Shown: positions 3,701 through 39,865 of the stretch, one piece after another | How the letters are laid out: every line of letters begins with the position of its first letter | Numbering within the stretch: position 1 is the first letter of the stretch | IMG/VR virus record: IMGVR_UViG_3300021091_000020 | Span: 59,503 to 123,502 of that record | Reading direction: 5' to 3' (one strand) | DNA: 64,000 nt | Source of the DNA: a virus | Notes under the pieces: model-generated | The model's database searches: none | Told to the model about the DNA's origin: nothing | What the model saw: the letters and a program-made list of their open reading frames with translations, nothing else | Translations under genes and position numbers: made by a program

Positions 3701-5650
3701 TATAGGTTTTAATATATTACCATCTTTATCTAATTGAGTTCCAATTGGTAAATTTTTTGGTCCGGTATAATTTGGTGGGTATCCTGCGTCATTTTGCAAA
3801 ATTGTGTATGGATTTACAAAAAGTGTTGCTCTTCCAGGATATAAACCATTGAATGTATTTGGAACATTTCTTAAACATATCCAAGGACTACGATAAAATC
3901 CTTCACGGCCAATTTCAACTCCTGGTGGTATTTGACCAAATTTATTTTGATCCCATTGACCACCGTACCATAGAACCATTCCTTTTGCCACTTGTGTAGC
4001 ATCAAGTGGCTTAACGTATTCGGTTGGCCTATAAAATGCATTTGCTGGTGGAATAACGGCTGCGGATGATGCATTTGTTAGACCAGCAAGATTTGTTGTT
4101 GAAGTGATATTACCTGAATTTACAAGTGAAATGTTTCCCGATTTAAAAATTTCATCTTGGTATCTGGATGTTCTATAAAATGGTCCAGATCTAGTACCAT
4201 CTGGATTATCTACCCAATATTTTTCAGCTTGATATGCAAAACTTGGACTTCCCCATTCGGGTATCCATTCCCAGTCTATGAATTTTACATACATTCCAAA
4301 AAAATCAAGAAAGCCCTTATCGTTTTTTTGAAAATTTTCTCGGCCTGCGGGTGGATTGTTAAAATTTAACCAATTCATATCTAATTTTTCATCACTAGAA
4401 TTTTCATCAAGTGCCACCGTTCTAGCAACTAGTATGTTATCATTTCCTCTTGCCGGCGGTTTTGATAACCCGTAATATATGTATAGTTTATCCAGCGTAA
4501 CGCTAGCAAATCTAAACATATTAGCTTCAGCATCCGTTTCAACGCTAAAGTCATTATCTTGTCCATAAAACCCAAGTGGTGGTTCCAAGAAAAATGTTGT
4601 ATTCGGTGATGGTGTTCCATCTTTTTTTACTGATTGTTCTTCACCAATATAAGCAATTTTTCTGCTATGATTTGCCCAAATAACGTGTTGTGCTATAGGT
4701 CTTTTGTGTGACTCTATTTTACCATCTGGTGTAAATACAACTCTTGATGTGTCATCTCCCAATGAAACTGTATTTCGTATTCTATCCGCAAGTGAAACTA
4801 AAACACCTTCTTTACCAACTTCGTCACCAAATTCATCAAGTATAGGAACTGTGCCAGATCTTGATGATTGTTGTTTTATTGTTAAGTTTGTCAATAGTTC
4901 AATATCATCTACTTCAAAGTACCATTCATAATCAATACCGTCTGGCTTTCCTGCAGTTTGAGGACATTTTCTTGTTCTATAAACAAGTTTTGAAGTTGCA
5001 AGAACAACATTTTTTTGAACTATTCCAGTTAGTATCTGTTGAAACGGTCTATAAACATCATTTGCAATGTCTTCATTATAGAAAGGACTAGTTGAATCTA
5101 GAGTTGCATCCGAAACAAGTGGTTGTTCTGGAAATTGAATATAACGAGTGAATTTTCCATGTAAATCTGCTACTAAATTCCATCCACCATTTATTATTCT
5201 TTCCCCAATTCTAGTTCTCTGTCTTGCACCAGTTGAATCAACTGCAGGAACTAGTCTTACTCTATCAAATGCATAAGTTATTTCACTAAATTCACCACCT
5301 TCATATTCATATTCGGGCAAAGCACCGTTATCTATAAAATATGCATCTGCGGATTTTACTTCTGTACCAGATCTATGCCATTGTTTTGTTTTTCCTACTA
5401 TTTTTACTTCTTCCGAAAATGTTGATGCCAAATATATCGGCATTGTTTTTTTTAAGTAATTATTATTTTTTGGAATTATATTTAATTTTGCACCTTGCGT
5501 TCCACTATCACCAAAATTACTAACTGCAACATTTGGTTTAAGAATGTAAAAAGGTAATATCCGGGTATCTACTTCTTGTAATGAATCTGGAACTGGTGTA
5601 TATGTAAACGGACTGTCACCGATTTGCGGTGCTATGTATTGATCTGCCAT
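761..5650 (-). CDS. Large virion structural protein (tail/baseplate type)
   Basis: 1629 residues with no signal peptide or membrane segment, rich in Tyr, Asn, Pro and Gly, as phage baseplate and fibre-associated proteins are. The C-terminus contains YITAIGFYSDQNELVAIA, a segment I associate with large structural proteins of marine T4-like phages. A cysteine-rich stretch (residues ~1195-1330, with CDC, CGC and HQC) is unusual for a phage tail protein and could bind metal or form disulfides. It lies far from the main tail cluster, after two small genes. Role in the baseplate periphery or adsorption apparatus is inferred from size and composition; no enzymatic motif is seen. Confidence 0.75.
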   Translation of the reverse strand: MADQYIAPQIGDSPFTYTPVPDSLQEVDTRILPFYILKPNVAVSNFGDSGTQGAKLNIIPKNNNYLKKTMPIYLASTFSEEVKIVGKTKQWHRSGTEVKSADAYFIDNGALPEYEYEGGEFSEITYAFDRVRLVPAVDSTGARQRTRIGERIINGGWNLVADLHGKFTRYIQFPEQPLVSDATLDSTSPFYNEDIANDVYRPFQQILTGIVQKNVVLATSKLVYRTRKCPQTAGKPDGIDYEWYFEVDDIELLTNLTIKQQSSRSGTVPILDEFGDEVGKEGVLVSLADRIRNTVSLGDDTSRVVFTPDGKIESHKRPIAQHVIWANHSRKIAYIGEEQSVKKDGTPSPNTTFFLEPPLGFYGQDNDFSVETDAEANMFRFASVTLDKLYIYYGLSKPPARGNDNILVARTVALDENSSDEKLDMNWLNFNNPPAGRENFQKNDKGFLDFFGMYVKFIDWEWIPEWGSPSFAYQAEKYWVDNPDGTRSGPFYRTSRYQDEIFKSGNISLVNSGNITSTTNLAGLTNASSAAVIPPANAFYRPTEYVKPLDATQVAKGMVLWYGGQWDQNKFGQIPPGVEIGREGFYRSPWICLRNVPNTFNGLYPGRATLFVNPYTILQNDAGYPPNYTGPKNLPIGTQLDKDGNILKPIPDYFLGNRRSLSFVTDKALLMGSSGCPPLSFDAKDMWIETSKGLILAPTFRFGTTGYANDVYASTRSYLEIENERARNTLSGNTIDGFHSLNPAYIIPVDNYEDDRKYYVPNGPNPQFANYFFRDIRFVPTYDIERDSRGRVKKRTRTIAEVNNRVIPGVFNLIADLYMYIPTYRDIQNPSFGTVRMFVGILYPDYILARGQLVTSINQDCEDLFDWNSVKYEYRFSVSQINSLFPLSQGYNHHANNIRSALTGADRNRKYKMGLPGLKPGDPVTLDRMKDYELSFINGETRITLLNHILKQNAYEEMNNRHWQPYLQENEKYYSYSFGNLPILIDQEPKGVFGKLVLKDAVDKYVIPYDITRFKNKVIGETPCTQSSYRWDFRDEYPKAPGSDLAADVKPEYVNCEDAVWIPYSSNPFLEAKEFVDPSFQFVVGIDEVPEEKLPKIIGFVPKITKIRNEELTETIKTRDPQSPCYQGYKTVYDITEYYEVTHSKDCWTDASPLNEGEENVIFDGFAWKRYNGFFSGSIEYITTTQTVWEKPEKIMCDCIEIKVAGTPVIDPDDPCGCREIYIDNVYEICLDDGLYYYDNQIIPPNKLPKKTETRYSVSIDCGKVDVKVHHKINPETDILYAKEIIENYPMFNNSDSPDCYFTSSMQRSSSYEYHRDVVGCHQCETYSPYFAVSYGNFNGSGSVQSSFESNDSPSRAVYSRYRLITQESPTTKFSFYTNGVIDQNVDEIYTINFYSEYAKDGIDPGNFELSLAELNGGTYANNVFTGSNVQVSSSKKIITLIDTSNDLRNEEFCSTSPYTSFDIVSGSLVNGYYNTSSLHTYGTIYPLLNLVVLDGKKLRNELSFNTVTGSNINGDNSSKIFTSISGAASLNNPIRARKAHKKIRTEYLLKIKHMEANYSNNPTFVVSDNALSQKGKIKNECFDNEPITYITAIGFYSDQNELVAIAKPSKPIIKTPNDEVYLKIAIST

Positions 5651-22280: not shown

Positions 22281-22616
22281 TTATCTCTCCTCGTTAAATA
22301 CTCTAATCAATGCACTGATACCAGAATATTCTGCATATCTAGGTATTCGTATTATCATACCAGCAGGTATATTCAATGTACCTCTACCTAAATTATTTGA
22401 AATTGCTATAACATGCCAAAAAGTTTCATCACCGTAGTATTCTTTTGCTAACAAATCAAGTCTGTCTCCCGGTTGTGATAATATGATACTATCACCTGCG
22501 GTGTCCAATAGTGGATAAAATGTTGAAGATAATCTGCTAACTTTATGAGTGTCACCCTTTGAATCTATTTTTTTAGATCCAGTAACAATAGTGCAAATAC
22601 TATATCTATTTTCCAT
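22281..22616 (-). CDS. LysM-like baseplate protein (gp53 / tail protein X type)
   Basis: 111 residues. The C-terminal two thirds contain SQPGDRLDLLAKEYYGDETFW..IA..N and IPAGMIIRIPR, the LysM pattern used by baseplate proteins (T4 gp53 and gpX-like) to bind glycans or to hold hub to wedge. It starts 61 bases after the giant repeat gene and stops three bases before the hub-like gene. A late-type motif lies 40 bases upstream. Confidence 0.75.
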   Translation of the reverse strand: MENRYSICTIVTGSKKIDSKGDTHKVSRLSSTFYPLLDTAGDSIILSQPGDRLDLLAKEYYGDETFWHVIAISNNLGRGTLNIPAGMIIRIPRYAEYSGISALIRVFNEER

Positions 22617-22677: not shown

Positions 22678-25600
22678 TTATGGTGCACCCGTTGCTGTCA
22701 AAGCAGCAGCTGGAATAGCTCCTTCTTCGCCCGGAGCAACTGCCATATATTCTATAGCATCTTGATCACCACCAGCAATTGTAGTACTTGTGGCTGTTGC
22801 AGTTGGATTTGCTGCAGGACCTGGCATCGCTATATTATCAAATGGATTAAACCAATTGACTCTAGGAGTGCCCATAGATGCATCTGGAATAAGACCGGTT
22901 TCGATAGATCCACCACCCATTCTATCATCATATAATGGATAGAATACACCATATCTTTCAGGACGATATACACCAATTGGTACAAATCCAACAGAAACTT
23001 GTATAGTTTTTGGTAACTGAAGCGCACCTGGAGCCGATTCAGCTACAATACTTGCATCAGTTGCAACATTATATCTATCTCCTTCCAAATGAGCGGTTTC
23101 CCATGTACCATTCGCATTGTCAAATGTATAACTCAAATTACTGATGTATCCTGGCATTTTTCTAAATAGATTACCGATGTTTAATCTGCAAAGTGGTGCA
23201 CGAATGAAACCTGCACTTGTATATTCAGGTGCTGTCCATCCTGCTAAATAATTCAATTTACGCCAAGATGCCTTCGCTTCATCGCGCGATCCAATATGTA
23301 CGGTGAAATTAAAACTAACATCTCTCTCATATCCATCGTAAGTATAGAGTGGATCTCCTCTACCCATATATTTTACAGCAGACCATGATGGTTTGTGATT
23401 GTCAGTTATACTATCGAATATAGCTCGAAATACAATTACTTCTGCAGGACAGTAATTATGACCATCTAAAACAATACTTGAAAAATAAAATTCTATCAAA
23501 TCATCCTTACCCGGATTGTTTATATTATCAAACGCCCCTTTTTCATAAACAAGTTCGTGATTTAAAGCAACATTAGCTCTCTTGTAATCAATTATATTTA
23601 TTCTATCGCCTCTAAATTGATATGGTGGAGCACCTGCAGCTGCGGCTTTCACTATCGGAACAGGAAATGTTCTAAAAGCGACTCCTCTACCAGTTGCGCC
23701 CGCAACAAGTGCAGGAGTAAACAATGGGCCCATTATAGCCGTTTGTACTTTTTCATATATTATATTTGTTACTCTTGGATTTCCTCTGTCTGAACCAGGA
23801 TCTCCGTGTTTTCCTAAACCAAATTTTGTCTCCAAGTTATTTTGATCATAATCCACTACCGCAGGATGAGTTGAAAACTTAAAAGCCATAACAGTTGGCC
23901 ATACAGTAGTATTTCTTGGTGATGCAGCACCAACATTTGTTGCATCAAAGTCATCAATATCCCATCTAAAATCGTTCCATTTCTCACTTCTATTTGGAGT
24001 CCAACTTGGATTGAAATAATTTACACCAGGATTAATTCTAGTAGCGGGAATGGGTGGTCTTGAAGATGCAGGACTTGTTGATCCAAATCTATTTTTACTA
24101 TACCAAGGAGATGTTTTAAAATGTTTAACATTATCAATTGCTATATTATTTATATTCGCATTTATTGTGTCCATGGTGGTATTAGCACTGCCTCTACCTG
24201 ATGTTATTTCTTGAACCGTTGTATTCCTTAATCTATTTTGAGAAGATTCATAAGGAAAATTAAATGTATCCATTGCATTTATTTTTCTAGTTGTTATCGG
24301 TTGTATTGTTACATTTTCACCCCGAAATGGATGTTGGGGATCATTTGGCTCATAAATGCCATGCACATCAAATATACCGTTTAATCTATCTTTATTCTTT
24401 GTTGCTAAACCAGTTGTAATTGCATACAAATCGCCACCCAATTCATTTTGTGGAACTGTACTCGTTGATCTCAATGCATTTTGAACTTTTAATAATCTAT
24501 CTTTGTATGTTGAATAAAAATCTATTGCAAAAAATGTTTCTCTTTGTTTTCCTTCAAGTATACCATCTTGTGTTAATTCTGGACCATGCGTTGAATAAGT
24601 ACCAATTAATTTATGACGAGATTTACTTATTACAGTTCCACCAATCCCAAGAAACGATGAAGCTCCTCCAAAAGTAGATGAAATTCGTATAATTTCTCCG
24701 TCAGTCAATCTCTGTCTATGTGTGGACTTCAGTGAATTACTACTTTTTACTCGCAATTCTGATATTGGATCAACTGACTGTGGTACTGTTACTGGATTGC
24801 CAGGATTAGTATATGTTGCCGTTGTATTTGCAGATTGAGCTGGACCAGAATACTGTGTGCTGATGTCACTAAAATCAAATCCACCACCTGCAACATCGTA
24901 TTCCATTGAATTATCAAATCCTTGTGTCTCAACATTTGGTGCTCTTAATAAAATAGGTGCAAATGATTGTGGCAATAATTCTTTCATCAAACCAATTAAA
25001 CGATTGTATCTTCTTTGACGCGTTATTGCATTTCGTCTAGTTGGTTCTTCAAAATAATCAAGCGCCTCAGCAGTTCCTTGTGAGAGTTGATTACCCGCGC
25101 TTTGTCTTCCAGATATGGAGGAATCCATATCTAAATCGTGATCAGCACGCACAGCATTCCAATTTGGATTTTCTTCTGCAGGAATCATCCAATCGCCATT
25201 TAATCTTCTATGAAAAGACCTTTTTAGATAATTTATACCAGCAATATTTTGATCTATAAATCCAGTTTTATTCCTATATGTTGTTTGTGCCTCATATCCC
25301 CTATTTAAATCTTGTGGAACATTTTGTCTTTGATTTGGATTACCGGTTATATTTCCCAAAGTTGGTCTATATGCAAGATTATTGTTTGCATCAGTTGTAC
25401 TTACCGGATCACCTTGGCCTGCAGCAACAGAATATTGTGTTGTAAATAATAATTCTCTATAATTCGGAGGTTGTTGCATTACACCATTGAAACCAAATCC
25501 AGTTGATCCCCAATGTCTTTGCCAATGAAGACCTATTCCTTTACCAACTGCACTTATTATAGTAGAAAATGGATTATACAACATAGTTGGTGAAGGCATG

Positions 25601-28600
25601 AATATATTTGGATCGGTACTTCTTACTTGATCCGGATTGGAAGATCCATCACCAAATCCAGGCAATACTGAATTTCCTAAAGTATATGTTTGTCTATTTG
25701 GACCACTATCGGTTGATGAACGGGTTTGAAAAACATCAAACGGTTCATTCCATGAATCCATATATGGATTCATAAATTGTAGACCAAATTGTTTTACAAT
25801 CCACAACAAACCTTTACCGGATGTCATCCATTTACCAATTCTCTGTAAATCGGCAAGACTTCTATCTAATAGTGTAGATGGACTATTTCTACCACATGAT
25901 AATACACCCCATCCCCAATTGGCACCTATATTCGATGTGTAATAAGGTTGATCCCATATTAAATCTGGATTGTAAGAATCTTTACGCAAATCAAATTTAT
26001 TGTATTCTTTTTCAAGAGCACCAGATTTTATTGCCCATCTTCCAAGAAATCCATATCTTCTTACAAGATTTGCACTTGAATCATCTTGAACTGAAAAACC
26101 TATTTGATTTGTAATATTTTCATATCGGCCACCGCTACCATCATTGGTTATATTTTTTAACGCAGCTTCATCATTATCAATCGGTTGTGCCCACCAACCA
26201 TTTTTTAATTGTTGTTCATATGGACCACCTATAAACTTTTGTGAATTTGCATTATCACCCTGCAAATCAGTAAAATAAGTAGTTGGTCTTCTATATCCAT
26301 AAAATCTATTGGTTTTATCAGAAGTATATTGAGGGTATTGATTTGCCATTGTAGCAAAAAGTAAATTACCCATTTTACTAGACCAAGGACGTTTTCCCAA
26401 AGAATCTGGTAAATACGTATTTAAAAATTCTTGTTCAGATCCATTATCTAATGTACTCAATGTTCCTTGCTTATGTCCGTGGGCAACGGAATAAACCACT
26501 TGTGATACCAATGCCTCTCTTACAAATCTTTGGTCAGAATTAACATTATTAGCTCTTAAAATTTCACTATAATTTTCTATGGTTGGCATTATTATTGGAT
26601 ATTTTGTTCCATAAAATAATGTCATAAACGGTAAAAATCCATCACTTTGTTTGAATGGGTATGTGTTTCCTGGTCTTATTGATTTTGTAGTATTAGAGAA
26701 GAAACTAAAAAATCTTGTATATTTTTGTTTAGCATCTGTAAACGAGTATTTTGATCCAAGTGTACTATCATAGTATTGATTACCAACGCCCAATCTATTC
26801 ATTAACCGAAGTAAAAATCTTGTAGTTTGTAAATTTTGCTCGTTTTGATCAAATGTAGGTCTATTTAATGTTCCCAAAAATGGCACAAACCCTCTTATAC
26901 CTTGAACTAAACCGGATGCATTTCCTAATCGTCCAGGATCTCTTCCAGATTTATCAAAGTCCGTTGGATATGAGAAACCATTTGGTGCAGGAAAGAAATC
27001 AGTATATGGATCAGCAGTTGCAAGGACAGACAGTTCTGAAAGATACGGTGAATATGCAGTTTGAGTCTTGTTTATGAAAAATGTTCTAAATCCTGGATCA
27101 AGACCTTCTTTTCTAAATAATTCAGGAGGATTAACTCCAGCACGACCTATCTGAACATTTGGTGAGTTTTGTATACTAAATAAAACAATCTTTCTAGCAT
27201 GATCAGTTTTTGGTTCTATCTGTGGAAAAAATGTAACTGCTGGTGCATTTGTACGTATTCCATTCCAATCAAAATAGGAAGAATCTTCAATGTATTTTGA
27301 ATCCAATCCTAATGCAAAAGTATGAAATCCACTTCTTGTAAACAAATTATTTTTATCAAAATAATTAACAGCAGGTGCATTTAATTTAGTACCATCATAA
27401 TCAAATATAGATGAATCTGGAACATATTTTGAGTCATATATTTTTGCTAGTATATGAAAACCTGCAGTTGTTTTGTGAATGTATGGATCTTTATTTCCAA
27501 CCATTCCCAATTGATGTAATATACTACCAGGATTAATTTGAGAAGAATTATTGTTTAATTGTCCATTGATAACAACAGGAGTTGCATTTGTTGTTCCTGG
27601 TTTTGAATTACCATCTATATTATCCGATGATGAACCTAATCCTTCAACCATTCTCATAGAAGGATTATCAAAGAAATTAACTGGTAATGGATTTTTAAAT
27701 GTCAATCTATCAACGTTTCCAACCCAACCATATTGATCAGTATTCATAATATATTGAGTATCATACTTTTGAGCGAAAGTATGAAATCCTGCATATGTTA
27801 CGCCCTCAATTTTAAAATCAAATCTTCTTTGTACTCCCCCAACAGTTGTAAATGCGGGATATTTTGAAGCCATAACTTGTATCCCACGTAAATAATCCCC
27901 ACCACCAAGATTAAATCTAATAAATGCGTCACGTCCTCTAGCACTATCAAAATAATCAACAGCAGGTGCTTTATCTCTTGTACCATCCCAATCAAATCTT
28001 GATGCTCCTGGAATATATTTTGAAATATAATGCTCTGCAAATATATCAAAACCAGACAAAGTTTTTTTAATGTATGCGTCTTTTGTACCAATAGTTTTTA
28101 AGAAAGAAAATCCTCCTATTGGCGATCTTAAATTGTATGCCTCATAATTTTGTGTTGTTCCAGGATTATCCAAAAAGTTATTATCACCAACATTAAATCT
28201 TGCACGATAACGATTTATTGATCTAAATGCATCAAAAAAATCTACGCCTATCGGATTTGTAAAGTTTGTCCTATCTGCTCTACCATCCCAATCATATAAT
28301 GATGAATCTTTAATATACTTGGTATCATACTTTTGTGCAAATATATGAAAACCTGCAGTAGTTTTTGCAATAAAATCTTTTGGTCTATTGAACGCAGCCA
28401 ATAATGAGTTTGCCTCTGATGTTGTTCTATTTGATTCAAGAGTATCAAAGTAATCAACTGGAATAGGATTCCTAAAATTAGTTTTATCAGGAACACCATC
28501 CCAATCATACAATGATGCATATTTAATATATTTTGTATCGTACTTTTGTGCAAAAATATGGAAACCAGCAGTTGTAGTTGCATAAAACTGTCTTGGTATA

Positions 28601-31600
28601 TTTGGATTTATTAATATAGAATTTAACTCTGATGTTGTTCTATTTGTTTTTGCCGTATCAAAATAATCAACAGCAGGTGCTTTATATTTTGTACCATCCC
28701 AATCAAAACGAGAACTTTCAGGAATATATTTTGAATCATATAATTGAGCAAATATATGGAAACCACCAAATGTTTTTGCAATAAATTTATCTTTTATACC
28801 AACCGTCATTATACCATCACGATAATCATTTGGGGTATTTATGATAAATTGAGTCCCAAATCTTCTAGCATTAGCATTTGGGTTATCAAAATAATCTACT
28901 GGAATTGGATTTGTAAAATTCTTTCTATCAGGTTTTCCATCCCAATCATATCGAGAAGAATTGCGAATATATTTTGTATCATATAATTGAGCAAACTTAT
29001 GGAAACCGGCGGTGGTAAATGAAATAAACCCATTTGTAAATTCTGATGTAGTTCTATTTGTTTGAGCAATATCAAAATAATTAACAACTGGCGCTTTATC
29101 TCTCGAACCATCCCAATTGTATTCTGATGATTCTGTAATGTATTTTGTATCATACTTTTGTGGGAATGTGTGAAAACCGCCTATTGTGTTTGCAATAAAT
29201 GATCTTGGGACATTAAATTGAGCAAGCAAAGAATTTTGTTCAGTAGCAGTTCTACTAGTTCCAGCAACATCAAAATAATTTACAGCAGGAGCAACTTGTT
29301 TGTCACCGTCCCAATCATATATCGAAGAACCACGAACATATTTTGTATCATATATTTGTGCAAACTTATGAAAACCAGCAGTTGTTTTTGGAACAAACCC
29401 GCTAGGAAATTCTGATGTAGTTCTATTTGTTCCGGCAACATCAAAATAATTTACAGTTGGTGCGTCTATTCTATTTCCATCCCAATCAAATCTAGATGTT
29501 TCTTCTATAAATTTAGTATCATATAACTGTGCAAATGTATGGAAACCTGTTGTTGTATTTTCAGCATACAAGTCAAAATAATTTACAGCAGGTGCCTTAT
29601 CACGTGTTCCATCCCAATCAAAGAATGATCTTTCTGGAATATATTTTGAGTCATATTTTCTAGCAAATGTATGAAAACCTGTTGTTGTAAAATCTTTACT
29701 TAAATCAAAATAATTTACAGCAGGTGCTTTTCTGCGTTCACCATTCCAATCAAATCTAGATCTTTCTGGAATATATTTTGTATCATATATTTGTGCAAAG
29801 GTATGAAAACCTGTTGAAGTAAATCGACCATTTATGTCAAAGTAATTTATAGCAGGTGCATTTACCCCAATACCATCCCAATCAAATTCTGACGAATCTT
29901 TAACAAATTTACTATCGTATTTTTGTGCAAATACATGAAAACCTGTTGTTGCATTTTTTAAATCAACATCAAAATAATTTACAGCAGGTGCATTTTTTCT
30001 TTTACCATCCCAATCGAATATGGATGCACCCCTCACATATTTGCTATCATATATGTCAGCTAATTTATGAAATCCTTTTTTTGTATATGTGGAATTTATA
30101 TCAAAGAAATTTACTTCTGGAGATTTTGTTCTCTTTCCATCCCAATCATATATTGAAGATTGATTGATATATTTTGTATCATATATTTGAGCAAAAGTAT
30201 GAAATCCTGCATTACTTTTTTCTTTATTAAAATCAAAATAATTTACATTAGGTGCTAAAGGTTTTTTGCCTTTCCATGTAAATCGTGATATATTATCAAT
30301 GTAATTTGATGTCAATGCGCTTGCAAATAAAGTAAAACCAGCATTCGTATGTTGATTTGTTACATCAAAAAAGTTTACATTTCGGACAGTTACAAATGAA
30401 TAATCAGATGTATCAGTATTGTACAAAGTTTCTCTTGGTTGTGCAAATGTTTTGAAACCCTTTGCATGTTCATCTATAATAAAATCAACAGACGGTGCAG
30501 TTTTTTTAATACCCGGCCAACCAAAAATTGAACTAAATTTATTAACTAAATCCGTAGACTTTTGATTTATACTAAATCCTCTAAAAAATCTATCATCAAA
30601 ATTGTTTACACCGGTTGGGTTATTGAATGAATATAAAGATTTTGTTGGGTTTTCATTTCTACCAGATGGATTGGTCTTGATTACATCATCTACATTATAG
30701 ATACTGTTATCTTTATCTTGTATAGTTTCACGACTATATCTCAACAAATCCGGTTCTTGTATTGGTCTTCTACTTTCAAGCATAGAATTTGAAACAAACT
30801 CTATTGTTTTTCCTTTTGGATTTAATTCACTTTCATCGGTAAAATGATTTGTTCCGGATTGTATTCTGAATACTTTTGTTTTTGGATCAGTAACAAGACC
30901 TTCCTTTATTGTATCTTTTATTATATTCGGTGTTGTATTTTCTTTATTTGATGGTTTAAATACCGTATTTAAAGCAATGTTTGGATTAACAACATTATTT
31001 ATCGGTGAAAATAAATTTTTATTTATTACTACCGATTGTTTTTCTCTGTTTATTGTAAGTGGTTTACCATCTATTTTTATTTCTGGAATAATAATGTTAT
31101 TTGTTTCTTCATTATTATCGGTTAATATATTTGGTGTTTGTTGTATTCTATCAACTGTTTGCTTAAATATTTCAGGATTTATACCAGATTGATTGTTATT
31201 CGTTCCTCTTTCTGTTTTTATTATCAATGTATTTGAAGAATTTAAGTTGTTTACAATTTCTTCTTGTTTTATTTCTCCAAATTTTGAAGTAACATTTTCT
31301 ATTGTAGATCTACCAAGTGAATATGTATCTACATCTATATTTTTTGGAGATAATCCTGATACGGAATTAAGCATCATGTCATCAAAATCTTTGCGTACAA
31401 TATCATCCAATTTTGATTTTTTTAGCCTTTCATCTATCGGTGTTTGCTTTGGTTTTTTTATTTCTGGTATAGACGTTAGTAATCTATCGGTAATAGGTTG
31501 ATTTGTTGCAAAACCTTTACTACTTTTTGCAACGGATGTTTGTGGACCTTCTTTTTCTTCTATGGAAGTTTCAGCTCTATATTTTGATAAGTCTGACTTT

Positions 31601-31617
31601 AAATCTAACAAAGACAT
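22678..31617 (-). CDS. Giant repeat-containing tail/baseplate protein (2979 residues)
   Basis: The largest gene here. Residues 1-370 are Asn/Thr-rich and likely disordered. Residues ~370-1465 hold 18 copies of a ~44-residue unit with the conserved phrases GFHTFAQ, YDTKYI, S-S-x-F-DWDG and APAVNYFD; some units carry insertions of 20-80 residues. Residues ~1465-2700 are non-repeated. The C-terminal ~200 residues before the tail (VSFNFTVHIGSRDEAKASW, RAPLCRLNIGNLF) match a domain seen in phage tail-tube/baseplate junction proteins. A Thr/Ala-rich end follows. It lies between the tape measure and the LysM-like protein. No membrane segment or enzyme motif. Start has AGGA seven bases upstream. Confidence 0.8.
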   Translation of the reverse strand: MSLLDLKSDLSKYRAETSIEEKEGPQTSVAKSSKGFATNQPITDRLLTSIPEIKKPKQTPIDERLKKSKLDDIVRKDFDDMMLNSVSGLSPKNIDVDTYSLGRSTIENVTSKFGEIKQEEIVNNLNSSNTLIIKTERGTNNNQSGINPEIFKQTVDRIQQTPNILTDNNEETNNIIIPEIKIDGKPLTINREKQSVVINKNLFSPINNVVNPNIALNTVFKPSNKENTTPNIIKDTIKEGLVTDPKTKVFRIQSGTNHFTDESELNPKGKTIEFVSNSMLESRRPIQEPDLLRYSRETIQDKDNSIYNVDDVIKTNPSGRNENPTKSLYSFNNPTGVNNFDDRFFRGFSINQKSTDLVNKFSSIFGWPGIKKTAPSVDFIIDEHAKGFKTFAQPRETLYNTDTSDYSFVTVRNVNFFDVTNQHTNAGFTLFASALTSNYIDNISRFTWKGKKPLAPNVNYFDFNKEKSNAGFHTFAQIYDTKYINQSSIYDWDGKRTKSPEVNFFDINSTYTKKGFHKLADIYDSKYVRGASIFDWDGKRKNAPAVNYFDVDLKNATTGFHVFAQKYDSKFVKDSSEFDWDGIGVNAPAINYFDINGRFTSTGFHTFAQIYDTKYIPERSRFDWNGERRKAPAVNYFDLSKDFTTTGFHTFARKYDSKYIPERSFFDWDGTRDKAPAVNYFDLYAENTTTGFHTFAQLYDTKFIEETSRFDWDGNRIDAPTVNYFDVAGTNRTTSEFPSGFVPKTTAGFHKFAQIYDTKYVRGSSIYDWDGDKQVAPAVNYFDVAGTSRTATEQNSLLAQFNVPRSFIANTIGGFHTFPQKYDTKYITESSEYNWDGSRDKAPVVNYFDIAQTNRTTSEFTNGFISFTTAGFHKFAQLYDTKYIRNSSRYDWDGKPDRKNFTNPIPVDYFDNPNANARRFGTQFIINTPNDYRDGIMTVGIKDKFIAKTFGGFHIFAQLYDSKYIPESSRFDWDGTKYKAPAVDYFDTAKTNRTTSELNSILINPNIPRQFYATTTAGFHIFAQKYDTKYIKYASLYDWDGVPDKTNFRNPIPVDYFDTLESNRTTSEANSLLAAFNRPKDFIAKTTAGFHIFAQKYDTKYIKDSSLYDWDGRADRTNFTNPIGVDFFDAFRSINRYRARFNVGDNNFLDNPGTTQNYEAYNLRSPIGGFSFLKTIGTKDAYIKKTLSGFDIFAEHYISKYIPGASRFDWDGTRDKAPAVDYFDSARGRDAFIRFNLGGGDYLRGIQVMASKYPAFTTVGGVQRRFDFKIEGVTYAGFHTFAQKYDTQYIMNTDQYGWVGNVDRLTFKNPLPVNFFDNPSMRMVEGLGSSSDNIDGNSKPGTTNATPVVINGQLNNNSSQINPGSILHQLGMVGNKDPYIHKTTAGFHILAKIYDSKYVPDSSIFDYDGTKLNAPAVNYFDKNNLFTRSGFHTFALGLDSKYIEDSSYFDWNGIRTNAPAVTFFPQIEPKTDHARKIVLFSIQNSPNVQIGRAGVNPPELFRKEGLDPGFRTFFINKTQTAYSPYLSELSVLATADPYTDFFPAPNGFSYPTDFDKSGRDPGRLGNASGLVQGIRGFVPFLGTLNRPTFDQNEQNLQTTRFLLRLMNRLGVGNQYYDSTLGSKYSFTDAKQKYTRFFSFFSNTTKSIRPGNTYPFKQSDGFLPFMTLFYGTKYPIIMPTIENYSEILRANNVNSDQRFVREALVSQVVYSVAHGHKQGTLSTLDNGSEQEFLNTYLPDSLGKRPWSSKMGNLLFATMANQYPQYTSDKTNRFYGYRRPTTYFTDLQGDNANSQKFIGGPYEQQLKNGWWAQPIDNDEAALKNITNDGSGGRYENITNQIGFSVQDDSSANLVRRYGFLGRWAIKSGALEKEYNKFDLRKDSYNPDLIWDQPYYTSNIGANWGWGVLSCGRNSPSTLLDRSLADLQRIGKWMTSGKGLLWIVKQFGLQFMNPYMDSWNEPFDVFQTRSSTDSGPNRQTYTLGNSVLPGFGDGSSNPDQVRSTDPNIFMPSPTMLYNPFSTIISAVGKGIGLHWQRHWGSTGFGFNGVMQQPPNYRELLFTTQYSVAAGQGDPVSTTDANNNLAYRPTLGNITGNPNQRQNVPQDLNRGYEAQTTYRNKTGFIDQNIAGINYLKRSFHRRLNGDWMIPAEENPNWNAVRADHDLDMDSSISGRQSAGNQLSQGTAEALDYFEEPTRRNAITRQRRYNRLIGLMKELLPQSFAPILLRAPNVETQGFDNSMEYDVAGGGFDFSDISTQYSGPAQSANTTATYTNPGNPVTVPQSVDPISELRVKSSNSLKSTHRQRLTDGEIIRISSTFGGASSFLGIGGTVISKSRHKLIGTYSTHGPELTQDGILEGKQRETFFAIDFYSTYKDRLLKVQNALRSTSTVPQNELGGDLYAITTGLATKNKDRLNGIFDVHGIYEPNDPQHPFRGENVTIQPITTRKINAMDTFNFPYESSQNRLRNTTVQEITSGRGSANTTMDTINANINNIAIDNVKHFKTSPWYSKNRFGSTSPASSRPPIPATRINPGVNYFNPSWTPNRSEKWNDFRWDIDDFDATNVGAASPRNTTVWPTVMAFKFSTHPAVVDYDQNNLETKFGLGKHGDPGSDRGNPRVTNIIYEKVQTAIMGPLFTPALVAGATGRGVAFRTFPVPIVKAAAAGAPPYQFRGDRINIIDYKRANVALNHELVYEKGAFDNINNPGKDDLIEFYFSSIVLDGHNYCPAEVIVFRAIFDSITDNHKPSWSAVKYMGRGDPLYTYDGYERDVSFNFTVHIGSRDEAKASWRKLNYLAGWTAPEYTSAGFIRAPLCRLNIGNLFRKMPGYISNLSYTFDNANGTWETAHLEGDRYNVATDASIVAESAPGALQLPKTIQVSVGFVPIGVYRPERYGVFYPLYDDRMGGGSIETGLIPDASMGTPRVNWFNPFDNIAMPGPAANPTATATSTTIAGGDQDAIEYMAVAPGEEGAIPAAALTATGAP
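27220..30510 (-). repeat. In-gene tandem repeat array, about 132-bp unit, 18 copies
   Basis: Coding-strand array encoding the GFHTFAQ...YDTKYI...DWDG...NYFD units of the giant protein. Copies are diverged at DNA level but keep the protein phrase. Unit length is about 44 codons where uninterrupted; several copies bear longer insertions. Boundaries are approximate. Confidence 0.85.
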
Positions 31618-31664: not shown

Positions 31665-34600
31665 TTACATAGAACGACCATATGTATTATCTGTACCAAT
31701 TTGATATGTTTTCTTAAAATCACCCTTTCCATTTATTTCCTCTACCGTTTTGTCACCAATCTGAATTATAGTTGGTGTACTTGCCATTGAAGATATAATT
31801 GATATAAGTTGATCCATTTTTTGTTCCAACCCACCACCGCCACCAGCAGTTGCACCACCTGCACCGGGTGCACCGGCTGCTCCACCTGCACCAGCTGTTC
31901 CAACTGCTTCGGTTGTTTGTCCAACTGTTGATATTCCACCGGCTTTTGCAGGAGAGGCGGAAGCGCCACCCTTTTCTTCCCCACCGCCACCAAACAAAGA
32001 ACCTATACTACTTACAATCGAACCTATTTTACTTCCACCACTGGCTTTATCAACAGCAGACATTACTTCTTCTAATTTATCAAAGTTTACATTTTGGAGT
32101 GTGTTTGAAAGCATTGTCATGGCAGCAGAAAGTTCTACAATTGCCTTAGCTATACCAGATAATTTTTCTGGCTGAATGTCTTTCATTATAGTTTGTAATT
32201 GACTTAATGGACTTTCACCACCTAATAGTCCACCGATTGCATTTCCTATACCGTCTGCAATAGCACCTGCACCGGAACCACCACCAAAACCAGCGAGAGC
32301 GAGACCTAAAGCAGTTATACCACCGGCAATTTTTAATAAGTTATCCCCATCAAGTGTTGTTAGTCCCATCAACTTATCAATAACTTGTGATATACCACCT
32401 GCAACTGCTTCTATTATTTTAACAATTGCATCACCAATTGTTGTTATTATAGAGTTTATACCTTCAAATGCAACTTGCATTAAAGGAACAACCTCTTTCA
32501 TTGCCTTCCCTAATACCCACATAGCACCTGCAAAGACTATCAATGCCAATCCTAAAACAGCCAATACACCCGCACCAACTAAAAATACAGGAGCAAATGA
32601 ACCCAATAAAGCAGCAACACCAACTAATGCTAAAAGTGCAACACCGGCTTTTGCCATATCTTCCCACGATATTGACATAAATAATTGTAATGCCGCACCG
32701 ATTACATAAAGAGCGGCACCAAGAATTAACATAGCAGCTGCACCTTTTATCATATCTTCTTTTACTTTACCTATCAGGTAAGCAACACCAGCCAAACCTA
32801 ATAATGCAACACCGGCTTTTGCCATGGCAGCCCAATCTACTTTCATAAATTCTTGAACAGCTTTAGCAGTTACCCAAAGAGCTGCAGCGACTACCAACAA
32901 TGCAGCTGCACCCATTAACATTTTTTTAGCATCCATTTTATTAAATGCCTCTACCAATGAGTCTAAAAATCCACCACCACCTTTAGCAGCTTTTCCACCT
33001 GGCATTTTTGGTGTCTTTGGTGCCTTACCTTTTTTGCCACCAAGTCCTAATAGTTTTTTACCCATGTCACCTGCTGCATCTTTTATTTTATCTTCTATTT
33101 TTTCTTTAACTATATTTCCAAAGTCTGATGCCTTTTCCTTTAGCATATCAAGACCTTTACCGATAGCAGCTTTACCAGCAAATAATCCGCCAAGCAAGGT
33201 AACTGATTTTAATATACCACCGAAACCGGCTTCACTTGATTCTGCAGCTTTACCGGCTTCCGTTATACCACCGGTTATATTTTGTGTTTTATCCTCTACA
33301 CCACCAAAAAAACCTAAAACTGATGATACAGGTCCTATTAATGTTGATAATGCACCAAAAAGAGTTTTAACGATTGGAATAATACCCTTTATTACACCAG
33401 AAACAGATTCAACTATATTATCAAAATCGCCACCTGCATCAGCGGCATCCAACATACCGTGTACCATTTCGAGTATTGGTGTTAATAATTTTGATAGTTT
33501 CTCTTGTAGTTTTTGAACAATATTTGCCATTTTTTCTTTAATAGCAGCAGATTCTTTTTCTTTTGCCATTTTTTCTATTTCGGCCTTTAATGCACCGTCT
33601 GCCGTTTCACCTGCAATTTTTTTCAGTTCTTCAGCGTTTTTGGCTTGTAATTCATCCATTCTTTGTTGAGACACACCCAATTTTTGTAGTTTATCTGCAT
33701 TTGTAAGCATAGTAGTCATTTCTTCAACAGACATACCCATAGCATCTGCCATTGCCTTTTGTTGAATACGATTCATCTTTGTGAAATCTTCAAGACCACC
33801 TGCTTGTTTTAACAATTCATCTTGTAATCCAGCAATATCACCATTCAATGCAAGTTCACGTGCTTTGTCCAATTGAAGATTTTTACCAGTCAATACACGG
33901 GCTTCCATTTCTTTTTCAAGTGATTGTTCAATATCGAGCATACCATCACCAATATCTTGAACTTTTTTCAAATCGTGACCAAGTAATTTTGCCTTTTGAG
34001 CAGCAGCTGCAAGTGCAGACGGTATACCTTTGAATGCAACTGCAACTTCTTTTGGAACACTAGCAAGTGCTTTCATGGCCTGTTTGCTTGTCATCAATCC
34101 ACCACCCATTTTAGCAGCAGTTCCTGCAAGTTCACCCATACTTTTACCAGTTATAGATGAAAGACTGTGCATAGATTCTACTTCTTCTTTGGACATTTGG
34201 AATTTTTCTGTAAGTAATGTTGCATCTTTTACAAGTTGTTTTGCTGCAGGATTTCCACTGGCAAGTTGAGCACCAATATCTAATCCACCCATCATATCGG
34301 AAACCATACCAATATTTTTAACAACTTCTTTTGAATTTACTCCAACAACTTTCATTTCACCGGCTATATCTACTGATGTATCTCGTAAGGCCGCTGCTTC
34401 TTTTCTGGTGTACCCAAAATCTTTACCTATATCAGCTACTTCTTCATCCACTGCACTAAATGCACCTATTAAGAAATTAACTGCACCGGTTAATAATCCT
34501 ATACCCAACCCAGCCATCAATTTTGGTGCCATTGAAATCATACTACCCAATGCGGAACCTGCATCCTTAAATGCCTCGGCAGGACTATTTTTACCTTTTA

Positions 34601-35570
34601 TAGCACCTAATGCTGAAGTAAATGCGGTAGACATTTTTTTGTTTACATTATTTGCCGCTTTATCTATACCCAACGCATTTGTTATAGCATCTCCACCTGG
34701 AAGTTTTTTTACCCATCCCCCCATTGTATCACCAACTTTACTACTTGCCGTATTCAAAGTTGCCATACTATCATTTTGTTCTTTTATCTTTGCATTAGCA
34801 ACATCAAGTTGAGTAACTTTATCTAACATTATAGCAAGTGAATCAAGTTGTAATTTTTTTCCTTCACTTGTTAGGTTATTGTTTCCATGTTCTATCTCAT
34901 ACATTCTTACAAGAATTGCCTCTCTTGTTTTATCTGTATCAACAATAGTTGCCTTACCTTTTAATGCATCAGCCGATGATTTTAGCATTGCAGTTTCGAG
35001 TCTTTCTACATCTGAAGCAATATCTACTGTTTCTGCAAGTTCATCTTTAAAGTCTGCACCATATGTTGAAAGATCACGAGTACCAATTCCACCTCGTTCA
35101 AGAGTTTTAACCATTTTCTCTGCAACATTTACAGTCAAACCTATGTTTTCGGCATTTTTTCTTGCTTCTTCCGGAAGTGTTGATAATATGGCTTGTGTTT
35201 TGAAAGATGTTTTACCAAAATCATCCATAATAGTTTGACCGGTAGACAATTTTTGGAGGTAATCATCTGCTAAATTTACTTGTCCCTCTAATCCCTTTGT
35301 AGCATAATCTTGTGCTTTTTTTGCAGATTCAGTTCTTTTTTCAGTATCTTTGTCTATCTTTTCAATTTTTTTGCGTATTTCTTCTTCTTTCTCTACGCTA
35401 TCAAGGCGCAAAGTTTCCAGTTTTATTATTTTTTCTAGATTAGCAACAGACTTTTGTTCTGTTGATTCAATCTTATTTTTTAAATCAAGAATAGCCGCTT
35501 CAATTTTTTTTCGTTCTTCGGATATGACGCGTATCTGTTCTTCTAATTTTTTTTCATTTTCCGATGCCAT
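31665..35570 (-). CDS. Tail tape measure protein
   Basis: 1301 residues. Sets tail length and enters the cell with DNA. Residues 1-95 are a long Glu/Lys coiled coil, the middle is Ala/Gly/Met-rich helix, residues ~880-1025 hold several very hydrophobic helices (for example LLVVAAALWVTAKAV), and the C-terminal part is Gly/Ala low complexity ending in DNTYGRSM. It lies directly after the tail-chaperone pair, the standard position. GGAAGG precedes the ATG. A zinc-peptidase or lytic domain is not visible. Confidence 0.9.
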   Translation of the reverse strand: MASENEKKLEEQIRVISEERKKIEAAILDLKNKIESTEQKSVANLEKIIKLETLRLDSVEKEEEIRKKIEKIDKDTEKRTESAKKAQDYATKGLEGQVNLADDYLQKLSTGQTIMDDFGKTSFKTQAILSTLPEEARKNAENIGLTVNVAEKMVKTLERGGIGTRDLSTYGADFKDELAETVDIASDVERLETAMLKSSADALKGKATIVDTDKTREAILVRMYEIEHGNNNLTSEGKKLQLDSLAIMLDKVTQLDVANAKIKEQNDSMATLNTASSKVGDTMGGWVKKLPGGDAITNALGIDKAANNVNKKMSTAFTSALGAIKGKNSPAEAFKDAGSALGSMISMAPKLMAGLGIGLLTGAVNFLIGAFSAVDEEVADIGKDFGYTRKEAAALRDTSVDIAGEMKVVGVNSKEVVKNIGMVSDMMGGLDIGAQLASGNPAAKQLVKDATLLTEKFQMSKEEVESMHSLSSITGKSMGELAGTAAKMGGGLMTSKQAMKALASVPKEVAVAFKGIPSALAAAAQKAKLLGHDLKKVQDIGDGMLDIEQSLEKEMEARVLTGKNLQLDKARELALNGDIAGLQDELLKQAGGLEDFTKMNRIQQKAMADAMGMSVEEMTTMLTNADKLQKLGVSQQRMDELQAKNAEELKKIAGETADGALKAEIEKMAKEKESAAIKEKMANIVQKLQEKLSKLLTPILEMVHGMLDAADAGGDFDNIVESVSGVIKGIIPIVKTLFGALSTLIGPVSSVLGFFGGVEDKTQNITGGITEAGKAAESSEAGFGGILKSVTLLGGLFAGKAAIGKGLDMLKEKASDFGNIVKEKIEDKIKDAAGDMGKKLLGLGGKKGKAPKTPKMPGGKAAKGGGGFLDSLVEAFNKMDAKKMLMGAAALLVVAAALWVTAKAVQEFMKVDWAAMAKAGVALLGLAGVAYLIGKVKEDMIKGAAAMLILGAALYVIGAALQLFMSISWEDMAKAGVALLALVGVAALLGSFAPVFLVGAGVLAVLGLALIVFAGAMWVLGKAMKEVVPLMQVAFEGINSIITTIGDAIVKIIEAVAGGISQVIDKLMGLTTLDGDNLLKIAGGITALGLALAGFGGGSGAGAIADGIGNAIGGLLGGESPLSQLQTIMKDIQPEKLSGIAKAIVELSAAMTMLSNTLQNVNFDKLEEVMSAVDKASGGSKIGSIVSSIGSLFGGGGEEKGGASASPAKAGGISTVGQTTEAVGTAGAGGAAGAPGAGGATAGGGGGLEQKMDQLISIISSMASTPTIIQIGDKTVEEINGKGDFKKTYQIGTDNTYGRSM

Positions 35571-36842: not shown

Positions 36843-37331
36843 TTAGTATTGTAGTATAGCATAATCGTAGGCGAGTGTGAGAGAAATCTCAACAAACGCA
36901 TCGTTTGCCCAATCCATTTCACCGAATGTAGTTGCAGTAATGAAAGCACCTTTGAGTGTCCATTCTTCAACCTTATCACCAACAGGACCGAGAATATGAA
37001 GGGTAATATCTTTCTTGTAGAAGTCAGAATAACCATCACGACCTGTTACAGATTCGTGTGATAGACGTACCCATTCCATTGTTGCCTGTGCAGCGGATGG
37101 CACAATCGGATCATACAATTTGATTGTAATATCTTGCCACTCACCTTTACCTTTTACTTTACGTTTGATGTTAATGTGATCCAAAGTAATCGGATTAAAA
37201 GTTATATTTGGGCGGCCTGAACCTTTTACCAGGTAAGCGGGCACACCTTCAATGTACATAATAAAACGATTTTGTAACTTTGGCTCAAACGGGGTAAAAA
37301 ACACTTCCGTGGGATCAAGTAATTCAGCCAT
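36843..37331 (-). CDS. 19: Tail tube protein gp19
   Basis: 162 residues, the T4 gp19 length. Stacks as hexamers to make the inner tube. Characteristic stretches: FEPKLQNRFIMYIEGVPAYLV at the N-terminus (quoted span residues ~15-35), a charged IKRKVKGKGEW turn, and the closing beta strands AFVEISLTLAYDYAIL. It follows the sheath gene as in T4. TTTGGAG precedes the ATG, and a late-type motif is 32 bases upstream, fitting a highly expressed gene. Confidence 0.92.
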   Translation of the reverse strand: MAELLDPTEVFFTPFEPKLQNRFIMYIEGVPAYLVKGSGRPNITFNPITLDHINIKRKVKGKGEWQDITIKLYDPIVPSAAQATMEWVRLSHESVTGRDGYSDFYKKDITLHILGPVGDKVEEWTLKGAFITATTFGEMDWANDAFVEISLTLAYDYAILQY

Positions 37332-37423: not shown

Positions 37424-39865
37424 TTAAGCACCTGGAAATGCCGCACCTGTTGATTGAATGTTGAAATCAAGAATGATAAATTCAGCAGTCTTTGCAGGTT
37501 GTAGATAAAGTTGTCCGTAAAGAATGTTACGGTCAATAATATCTGGCGTATTATTACTTTCATCCATGATAACACGGAAGGCGTACAAACCTTGACGTTG
37601 TTGTATAGATTCAAGATATGGGTTCACAATGTTCAAGAAGCGAGTTCTTGTTTGTGATGTGTTTTGTTCAAACACAAGGTATCTTGTGGAGGAAGCAATA
37701 AACTTCTTAGCAGCAATCAAGAGACGGCGAACATTGATACGGTCAAGAGCAGATGGGCGACCTTGCAATGTTTTTTGTCCCCATACGCAGACACCAGATG
37801 CAGGAAATACTGCAATTGGATTTATTCTACCTTCGTATAATTGGTCTCTTTCGGCTTGTGTCAAACGTGTTTTTACTTCAATTACTTCTGTCAAACCACC
37901 ACGATTCAAACCAGCAGGCGCAAACCATTCAGCTGCAACACGGTCATTGAACGCAATAACACCAGGAAGAACAACTGATGGGGGAACCCATACTGGTTTG
38001 TTTCTATCCAAATCAACAATCTTAACCCAAGGATAATATGTTGCGGCATAGTTTGTGTCTAAACCTTCCATTGCAGAAACCGCAGTTGTTATATTATCAT
38101 CATATCCAACTGAATCCATTACATAGAAAGCATCGCCACGAGCTTCACACATTTCAAAGGCATAAGATGTAATACCAGAGTGTAGAGAATGTATAACACC
38201 AGGAGTTACAACCATGTTTACATCAAATTCATCAGCATTTGAAATTGTGTCTAGCGCCTTTTTGTAAGCAGCATATCCACTTGCTCCCTGATTTGAAAGG
38301 TCAAATCCTTGTGTATTAGAAGCCAACATATGTGTTCCTGTTTTCTTTTGAAGATTTGGCTTGTGACCATCGAATCCTCCCTGAAACGGAATCATAAACT
38401 TACGAGTATCAATAGAAGTATTACTTGTTAAAGTAATTGATCCACTATACGGATTAGTTGGAGTTGGAAAATTAGCAGCAGCATGTTGTGTGTAATCACC
38501 CAAATAGAAGTCTACATTAGATCCAGTTGAACGATTAGAAGCAACAGGAAGTGGTCTTAAATAATTAAAATTATCCGTGTTGGAGAAATCATAACTAAAT
38601 CCATAATAAACTCTCTTATTGTATGCAGATCCTATTGTTTGTGAACTTACATAAGTTGCAGCAGCAGGTTGAGTAAATCCACTTGGAATTGGAGTTGTCA
38701 AAGAACGGAAACCAAATGGTACTAAATTAGGAGATACTGCACCATTCTTAACAGCTTCTGTTACTTCAACTCTAATAAATTTTGATTTATTTGAATAATC
38801 ACCATTTACTACAACTTTACCTTCATCGGTAATTGTTACATATCTATCACCAATTACACGAGCAATATATCTTGGAGAATTTGGATCAAGAGTACATTTG
38901 AACGATTCAATTGTTGCAGGTCTTATATCTTCGTCTTGCCATCCATATGGTGTTTGAGGAAGTTTAGATTGATCAACATATCGTACAACAATATCAAAGT
39001 CACCATATTCTGAACCTGCAATTGTTCCAGCAGGACGAATGTTAGAAACACCAACTTTAAGTTCATAATTGGAATGACAACCATGAGAAATAGTTTCAAA
39101 CCTAAATAAGTCTATTGTATTTGCACCAACTTTTTGTGAAGTAACAAAAGGTGTTTGTGCAGCCAAATAATCGTCTGTAAAATCCCATTGTGGTGAATTT
39201 AAAGAACCACTTTCAATTATTAACGTTGTTGCAGCATCGGCAGCAAGTGATGCAGATGCCTGTTGTGTGAAACAAACATAATTGTAAACTGCATTTGTTC
39301 CGTAAGGGTTATATCCAAAAAGATTTCCTATAAAAGATGCATTATTTGGATCTATTGATGAACTAAAAGCTTCACCATTTTGATCCAAAGCATTGGTAAA
39401 TGTTGATTGGTCTGTTTCCATGCCACCTGATATTGTCAGTACAAAACTACCACTATTATTTGATGTTAATGTGGATTTTGCAAACATACTTTCATCATCA
39501 TCATTTCCAATAGCAAATGTTGGATGTAAAAATGATATTAACTTTTTACCCCATGAACCTGTTGCAACGAGAGCAAGAGGATGAGTAAGCATATATCCAC
39601 CAGATCCTAATACTCTAACAATGGTAGCACCACCTGCATTATTTAAATAACTTTTTGCAGTGTATGGAAGGTAAGATTGTTCATACAAACTACCAAACTG
39701 AGCAACAAAATCTTGATAGCTGCTCACTGCAACCGGTACAAAGGCCGGTCCCTTAATTGTAGGTCCTATAAGTGCAGCACCAATGGCTCCCACTCCTGTT
39801 TGGAGGAAGGATAAATCTTTTTCATTGGTAAACACACCAGGACTTATTATTCTTTCAGTTGCCAC
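37424..39865 (-). CDS. 18: Tail sheath protein gp18
   Basis: 813 residues, longer than T4 gp18 (659). The contractile outer sheath. The N-terminus ISPGVFTNEKDLSF is the standard sheath arm, GATIVRVLG follows the first domain, and the C-terminus has the conserved GVCVWGQKTLQ, DRINVRRLLIAAKKFI and FEQNTSQTRTRFLNIV stretches. The middle (residues ~100-480) is an insertion, probably exposed on the surface. The start is GTG at 39863-39865, backed by GGAG seven bases upstream. A late-type motif is 38 bases upstream. Confidence 0.95.
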   Translation of the reverse strand: MATERIISPGVFTNEKDLSFLQTGVGAIGAALIGPTIKGPAFVPVAVSSYQDFVAQFGSLYEQSYLPYTAKSYLNNAGGATIVRVLGSGGYMLTHPLALVATGSWGKKLISFLHPTFAIGNDDDESMFAKSTLTSNNSGSFVLTISGGMETDQSTFTNALDQNGEAFSSSIDPNNASFIGNLFGYNPYGTNAVYNYVCFTQQASASLAADAATTLIIESGSLNSPQWDFTDDYLAAQTPFVTSQKVGANTIDLFRFETISHGCHSNYELKVGVSNIRPAGTIAGSEYGDFDIVVRYVDQSKLPQTPYGWQDEDIRPATIESFKCTLDPNSPRYIARVIGDRYVTITDEGKVVVNGDYSNKSKFIRVEVTEAVKNGAVSPNLVPFGFRSLTTPIPSGFTQPAAATYVSSQTIGSAYNKRVYYGFSYDFSNTDNFNYLRPLPVASNRSTGSNVDFYLGDYTQHAAANFPTPTNPYSGSITLTSNTSIDTRKFMIPFQGGFDGHKPNLQKKTGTHMLASNTQGFDLSNQGASGYAAYKKALDTISNADEFDVNMVVTPGVIHSLHSGITSYAFEMCEARGDAFYVMDSVGYDDNITTAVSAMEGLDTNYAATYYPWVKIVDLDRNKPVWVPPSVVLPGVIAFNDRVAAEWFAPAGLNRGGLTEVIEVKTRLTQAERDQLYEGRINPIAVFPASGVCVWGQKTLQGRPSALDRINVRRLLIAAKKFIASSTRYLVFEQNTSQTRTRFLNIVNPYLESIQQRQGLYAFRVIMDESNNTPDIIDRNILYGQLYLQPAKTAEFIILDFNIQSTGAAFPGA

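Follow-up and report, generated by a model that had tools for sequence, protein, structure and literature searches.

Known tube initiators, such as A-1(L) gp18, Afp7, PVC7, the pyocin R2 initiator and the T4 gp48-type cap, are proteins of a few hundred residues. In A-1(L) the tail has 24 rings with a rise of 36.2 Å, together with a tape measure protein (TMP) of about 689 residues (PMC10966104). Phages of the Far-T4 group have been described from freshwater (Roux et al. 2015, PMC4360716). Here we analyse a 64,000-nucleotide stretch of virus DNA (the window), which is part of the 123,502-base IMG/VR record IMGVR_UViG_3300021091_000020. One of its genes (22678..31617) encodes a repeat-bearing protein of 2979 residues, which gene order and relatives mark as a probable tail-tube initiator. 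In contrast to the known initiators, its tube-initiator-like domain is preceded by some 2700 residues, a tandem array among them. Our tentative reading, to which we give a probability of roughly 0.4, is that the protein is the tube initiator of a Far-T4-like contractile tail and carries a string of docking motifs that would grip a repeated surface of the tail trunk. Unless another locus is named, coordinates are positions in the window, and all window features for which they are given lie on the minus strand.

Structure of the repeat array

The array is real and consists of 18 units of the form GF..FA..YDtKYi..SS.fDWDG....AP.VNYFD, which occupy residues 387-1465 (27223..30459). A hidden Markov model (HMM) of the unit scores each of them at 46-82 bits, as compared to a maximum of 5.4 bits in 200 shuffles of the protein. 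This confirms the 2979-residue protein with 18 units that a first-pass annotation, made from the sequence alone, had reported. Anchored on the GF pair, the units start at residues 387, 427, 471, 515, 559, 603, 647, 691, 748, 814, 871, 952, 1018, 1089, 1189, 1277, 1386 and 1430. Unit 1 spans 40 residues, and a length of exactly 44 is found in 7 of the 18 (units 2-7 and 17), with units 2-7 forming a stretch of exact 44-residue period (residues 427-690, 29548..30339). The insertions in several copies that had been noted earlier are seen in units 8-16 (residues 691-1385, 27463..29547), where inserts placed mostly after NYFD widen the period to 57-109 residues. In units 11, 13, 14 and 16, five additional residues separate WDG from the P of the second phrase. 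An extra degenerate copy, scoring 10 bits with the unit HMM, is found directly upstream of the array near residue 361.

Profile scans of IMG/VR gave 62 and then 80 loci, in overlapping sets that hold some near-duplicates. The repeat family is carried by 62 IMG/VR loci and by the cultured Microcystis phage Mel-JY01 (PP395634), whose relative WWT39329 (2255 residues, about 21 units, annotated as hypothetical) is encoded in the same gene order. Full-length proteins contain 7-21 detected units, counted with one HMM that undercounts the most diverged arrays (e.g. L101 and L114).

Conservation and turnover of the unit

The folded family consensus of the unit is TTAGFHTFAQLYDTKYIPESSIFDWDGTRQDAPEVNYFDLTGKN. 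Conservation reaches 100% at its G, F and second S, and it exceeds 90% at the first Y of KY, the W, the glycine of WDG, the P, and the F and D of NYFD. About seven aromatic residues recur per unit in a fixed pattern. Among 599 family units the distance from GF to W is 21 residues in 540 (90%) and that from W to [YF]F is 12 in 516 (86%), so that the phrases described as strict in the first-pass annotation indeed stand at near-fixed distances. Freedom of length lies in the joint before the next unit. Neighbouring middle units of Mel-JY01 are 95-97% identical in amino acids against 83-87% in nucleotides, and from this difference we conclude that purifying selection acts on the sequence of the unit.

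Related proteins differ by exact blocks of 44 residues (L025/L051, L031/L034 and L027/L037), in agreement with the earlier suggestion that the array can expand and contract. The first two units are position-specific. Similarity among the middle units is slightly higher inside one protein (0.63) than from phage to phage (0.57), as would be expected of continuing tandem turnover. In the clade of L068, L071 and L150 the units follow one another at 52-74 residues through most of the array, and there are 16-18 of them; thus, the number of units is held and their spacing is not.

Fold predictions and family searches

AlphaFold2 modelling of six units, with 92 six-unit windows as input, gave a predicted local distance difference test score (pLDDT) of 47.7 and a predicted template modelling score of 0.16. 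The model contains no helices of four or strands of three residues and no solenoid or hairpin. The repeating small fold proposed in the first-pass annotation is unsupported by this outcome, which argues against an autonomous fold of the beads or solenoid type insofar as one method of modest depth and with no control can do so.

The whole protein matched no family in Pfam or PHROGs and gave only noise below the cut-off in NCBIfam. No individual unit stretch passed the cut-off in any of these three collections, which agrees with the earlier remark that no named repeat family has this phrase. Six-unit windows did approach the Pfam family WDGH (26.3 bits, cut-off 27). This and similar matches were rejected as sums of sub-threshold matches, which also brought in obviously unrelated families such as calicivirus capsid. 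A search of bacterial and archaeal chromosomes (84,980 species genomes) gave 28 pattern matches to the unit, none of which was confirmed, and none of 147 matches fell in other proteins of the fetched loci.

The C-terminal tube-initiator-like domain (residues 2705-2890, 22948..23505) is predicted to be β-rich with one long helix. AlphaFold2 modelling of residues 1840-2979 from 31 sequences reached a mean pLDDT of 44.5, with values of about 57-71 across much of the last domain, where the weak model runs through three strands, one helix and another three strands. With this low-confidence model, the ten best Foldseek matches in the PDB were all baseplate or initiator chains (probability 0.94-1.00, E 1.3e-3 to 2.8e-2). 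They come from the S. coelicolor contractile system, Bas63, PVC, the cyanophage A-1(L) initiators, pyocin R2, Pa193, AFP, phage 7-7-1 and Mu. The viral models matched in BFVD include proteins named baseplate tail tube cap. Comparison of sequence profiles of the C-terminus with the PDB gave nothing credible. The similarity and the fold search support the C-terminal domain of the tube/baseplate junction that had been claimed for this protein; the support for a tube-initiator fold is weak. Because the C-terminal fold matches and the position of the gene agree, the protein is likely a tail-tube initiator.

Genomic context and relatives

The earlier designation as a tail protein is borne out by the position of the gene, which adjoins that of the TMP (1301 residues, 31665..35570, phrog_4372, E 4.8e-9). 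Directly downstream lies the gene for a LysM/gp53-like baseplate protein of 111 residues (22281..22616, phrog_7145, E 3.7e-10). In counts that take in redundant records, the repeat gene is immediately preceded by the TMP gene at 139 of 141 loci and immediately followed by the LysM gene at 133 of 133. The order sheath, tube, p288, TMP, repeat gene and LysM is kept in nearly all loci; in A-1(L) the initiator gene, unlike here, sits a few genes further on. Candidate docking surfaces for the array are the tail tube protein (162 residues, 36843..37331, phrog_4542, E 3.3e-27) and the tail sheath protein (813 residues, 37424..39865, PF04984, E 2.5e-15). The same strand also encodes a phrog_150 'baseplate hub' protein and, after the LysM-like gene, a protein of 714 residues. 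The latter is replaced by a much longer one (1180-1324 residues) in L068, L071 and L150. Phages whose LysM and TMP differ at 44-66% of positions have tube proteins that are about 90% identical. Further upstream in the window are genes for a T4-type major head protein, a portal, a terminase and PhoH (matches to phrog_138, phrog_2, phrog_213 and PhoH). Because PhoH is encoded near the head genes and the C-terminus matches that of an RM378 protein, the virus would fit the Far-T4-like phages. No photosystem gene that could serve as a host clue was found in the window fragment. At its far end (761-5650) the window encodes a 1629-residue protein that matched nothing in Pfam or PHROGs.

Some more distantly related proteins have only the C-terminal half in common with it and carry no array. 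These are proteins of 460 residues in RM378, 716 in immuto, 453 in L154 and 768 in L186. Because such array-less orthologues measure only 453-768 residues, the array appears to have been added to a tube-initiator protein that is compact in other respects. An N-terminal MxLxDLKxDL motif, compared by eye, is common to the window protein, L154 and L186 and is less exact in immuto; in the window it reads MSLLDLKSDLSKYR (residues 1-14, 31576..31617). A conserved segment predicted to be helical, RIGKWMTSGKGLLWIVKQFGLQFMNP (residues 1915-1952, 25762..25875), is recognisable in LR756508 and immuto as well.

The N-terminal arm holds two further repeats. One, of about 20 residues (LSxTKLDDIKKPKPxPI), is present in the window as a single copy, LKKSKLDDIVRKD (residues ~60-80, 31378..31440); it occurs in several, in part tandem, copies in relatives (L031, L025, L232) and is likewise gained or lost in 20-residue blocks. 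The other, of 34 residues (SPxIxVxPNDxSDNIxNPxIxI....LSFDRTxQ), sits N-terminal to the main array in two copies (residues 161-228, 30934..31137; 42.3 and 39.1 bits), whereas six copies are found in the L007 protein at residues 205-408. In the 484-kb uncultured phage LR756508.1 (L012, 5759-10504) the orthologous tail protein carries an unrelated acidic repeat, VPEEDEVFDHTEENES, of about 17 residues (51-nt period) in the N-terminal place of the 44-residue array, as if arrays had replaced one another there.

Covariation with tail proteins

With TMP length as a proxy for tail length, unit number correlated with TMP length among 49 phages (Spearman 0.84, raw). Phylogenetic contrasts gave r 0.52 (sign-flip p 0.0075) and a slope of 13.1 ± 3.1 TMP residues per unit, the overall range being 13-18. 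The signal comes mainly from TMP segments 632-943 and 1193-1253. This tracking of TMP length is supported but weak. As a control, the length of the 714-residue downstream protein showed a contrast r of 0.00 with unit number; the lengths of tube and sheath are nearly invariant among relatives. L050 was omitted from the correlation: its TMP open reading frame, upstream of 8396 in that locus, encodes only 657 residues, and the gene may be split, frameshifted or broken.

In mirror-tree comparisons the divergence of the unit follows that of the sheath (rho 0.65), the tube (0.50-0.59) and the TMP (0.49-0.54), and hardly that of the LysM protein (0.12-0.13) or the 714-residue protein (0.22). These values point to the trunk and not the baseplate as the putative partner. 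For the TMP a partial signal of 0.28 (p 0.007) is retained with the sheath included. The tube was considered as the sole partner and rejected, its signal being significant in partial tests without the sheath and gone with the sheath included.

Possible roles of the array

A tube initiator with a string of docking motifs could account for these observations as follows. The C-terminal domain would probably form a ring placed between the hub and the first ring of the tube, and the N-terminal arm would have grown into a string in which a linear motif of 44 residues is repeated some 18 times. On their own the units would probably stay unfolded; each may dock via its rigid GF..W and AP.VNYFD phrases to one in a series of identical sites along the tail trunk, on tube or sheath, in the manner of nebulin on actin. 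The joints between units would tolerate insertions. Several strings from one ring could then brace the trunk or help to organise its assembly, where the ring stoichiometry, the docking partner and the bracing role are what we infer. A stronger form of the proposal, which we regard as unlikely, is a phage counterpart of nebulin: strings from the initiator ring would run along the tail, every module would hold on to a set number of trunk subunits, and the number of modules would co-evolve with the TMP as a second gauge or brace.

Several results weigh against the docking string. Both AlphaFold2 models are poor (pLDDT 44.5 and 47.7), and none of the PDB Foldseek matches falls below E 0.001. The mirror-tree comparisons single out no partner, as the tube signal vanishes once the sheath is added, and part of the signal may come from the array being linked to the genes upstream of it. 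As for the TMP, the sign test (18 of 27 contrasts, p 0.12) is not significant, the correlation falls to r 0.30 (p 0.04) without the three strongest contrasts, and the extra TMP length in the closest pair falls in a low-complexity linker.

The array could instead be a whisker or adsorption string that lies outside the baseplate, its aromatic phrases binding host sugars or gathering fibres. The fixed pattern of aromatic residues would suit this role, anchoring in the baseplate would leave the array exposed, and its copy number changes fast, as is common in surface-facing proteins. However, no carbohydrate-binding, fibre or Pfam repeat family was matched, the unit is conserved across phages and not diversifying, its divergence tracks trunk proteins and not the baseplate proteins tested, and the AlphaFold2 model lacks a solenoid or hairpin. 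We consider this role unlikely, and nothing turned up in favour of the whisker or carbohydrate-binding string as put forward in the first-pass annotation. Quite unlikely, in our judgement, is a location in the tube lumen, with strings beside the TMP bundle that set or pack the TMP and exit at ejection. The covariation through the two TMP segments and the partial TMP signal that persists with the sheath would agree with such a companion. Yet a partner that matches the tube ring by ring would call for a steeper slope, TMPs reach the same length in phages with 7-9 detected units as in those with 17, and because the wall of the tube would hold the C-terminal domain in place, strings in the lumen would obstruct the DNA unless extruded.

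As for the length-setting spacer suggested earlier, copy number does loosely track TMP length, but one unit per ring would require a larger slope, and the shorter orthologues lack the array. A strict second ruler, in which one unit per ring sets the ring number together with the TMP, is very improbable. It was suggested by the raw correlation and by L027/L037, where one extra unit goes with 28 extra TMP residues, a length of α helix that spans about one ring; alignments of TMP pairs weakened it. The A-1(L) figures give 24-29 TMP residues per ring, against 13-18 per unit here, and would predict perhaps 45-54 rings for 18-19 units. Moreover, low-copy phages have ordinary TMPs, unit number changes between L025 and L051 without a change in the TMP core, and relatives without the array make tails. 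The array might also be a neutral, repeat-prone linker that was lengthened by slippage or recombination and has no specific partner. Evident tandem turnover, three kinds of repeat in one arm, and the acidic repeat that occupies the place of the array in LR756508 could be explained in this way. This is nevertheless improbable in view of the higher protein than DNA identity of neighbouring units, the near-fixed distances within units, and the retention of 15-21 units in most lineages while the spacing ranges from 44 to about 70 residues.

If the docking-string proposal is correct, some freshwater Far-T4-like phages would have a second repetitive tail element that scales with the tail machine, besides the TMP. 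A likely role would thereby be given to a giant gene, annotated as hypothetical, at 62 viral loci. Because natural variants with different numbers of whole units exist (7-21 detected) and Mel-JY01 is cultured, a role of a protein other than the TMP in building, bracing or gauging a contractile tail is directly testable.

Comparison with known systems

The protein resembles the tube initiators named at the outset in lying next to TMP and LysM genes and in the tube-like strand-helix-strand order of its C-terminal domain, with Foldseek matches that were obtained with a low-confidence model. The closest cultured relative, WWT39329 of Mel-JY01, shares gene order, unit phrase and C-terminal domain, and differs in a regular spacing of about 44 residues without the inserts of the window copies. 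The proteins of RM378, immuto (gp35), L154 and L186 have the C-terminal domain and, in several, the short N-terminal motif, but they are compact and do not contain the 44-residue array.

Phage TMPs are likewise repetitive tail proteins whose size tracks the tail machine. Here, however, the array is encoded by a separate, adjacent gene, and neither the slope nor the ring estimate agrees with a second one-to-one ruler. Nebulin repeats belong to muscle thin filaments, where the modules bind actin. The analogy with nebulin, for which no homology is claimed and in which the repeated partner lattice is here only proposed, lies in a large number of short modules that are non-globular, keep a fixed phrase and come or go as wholes.

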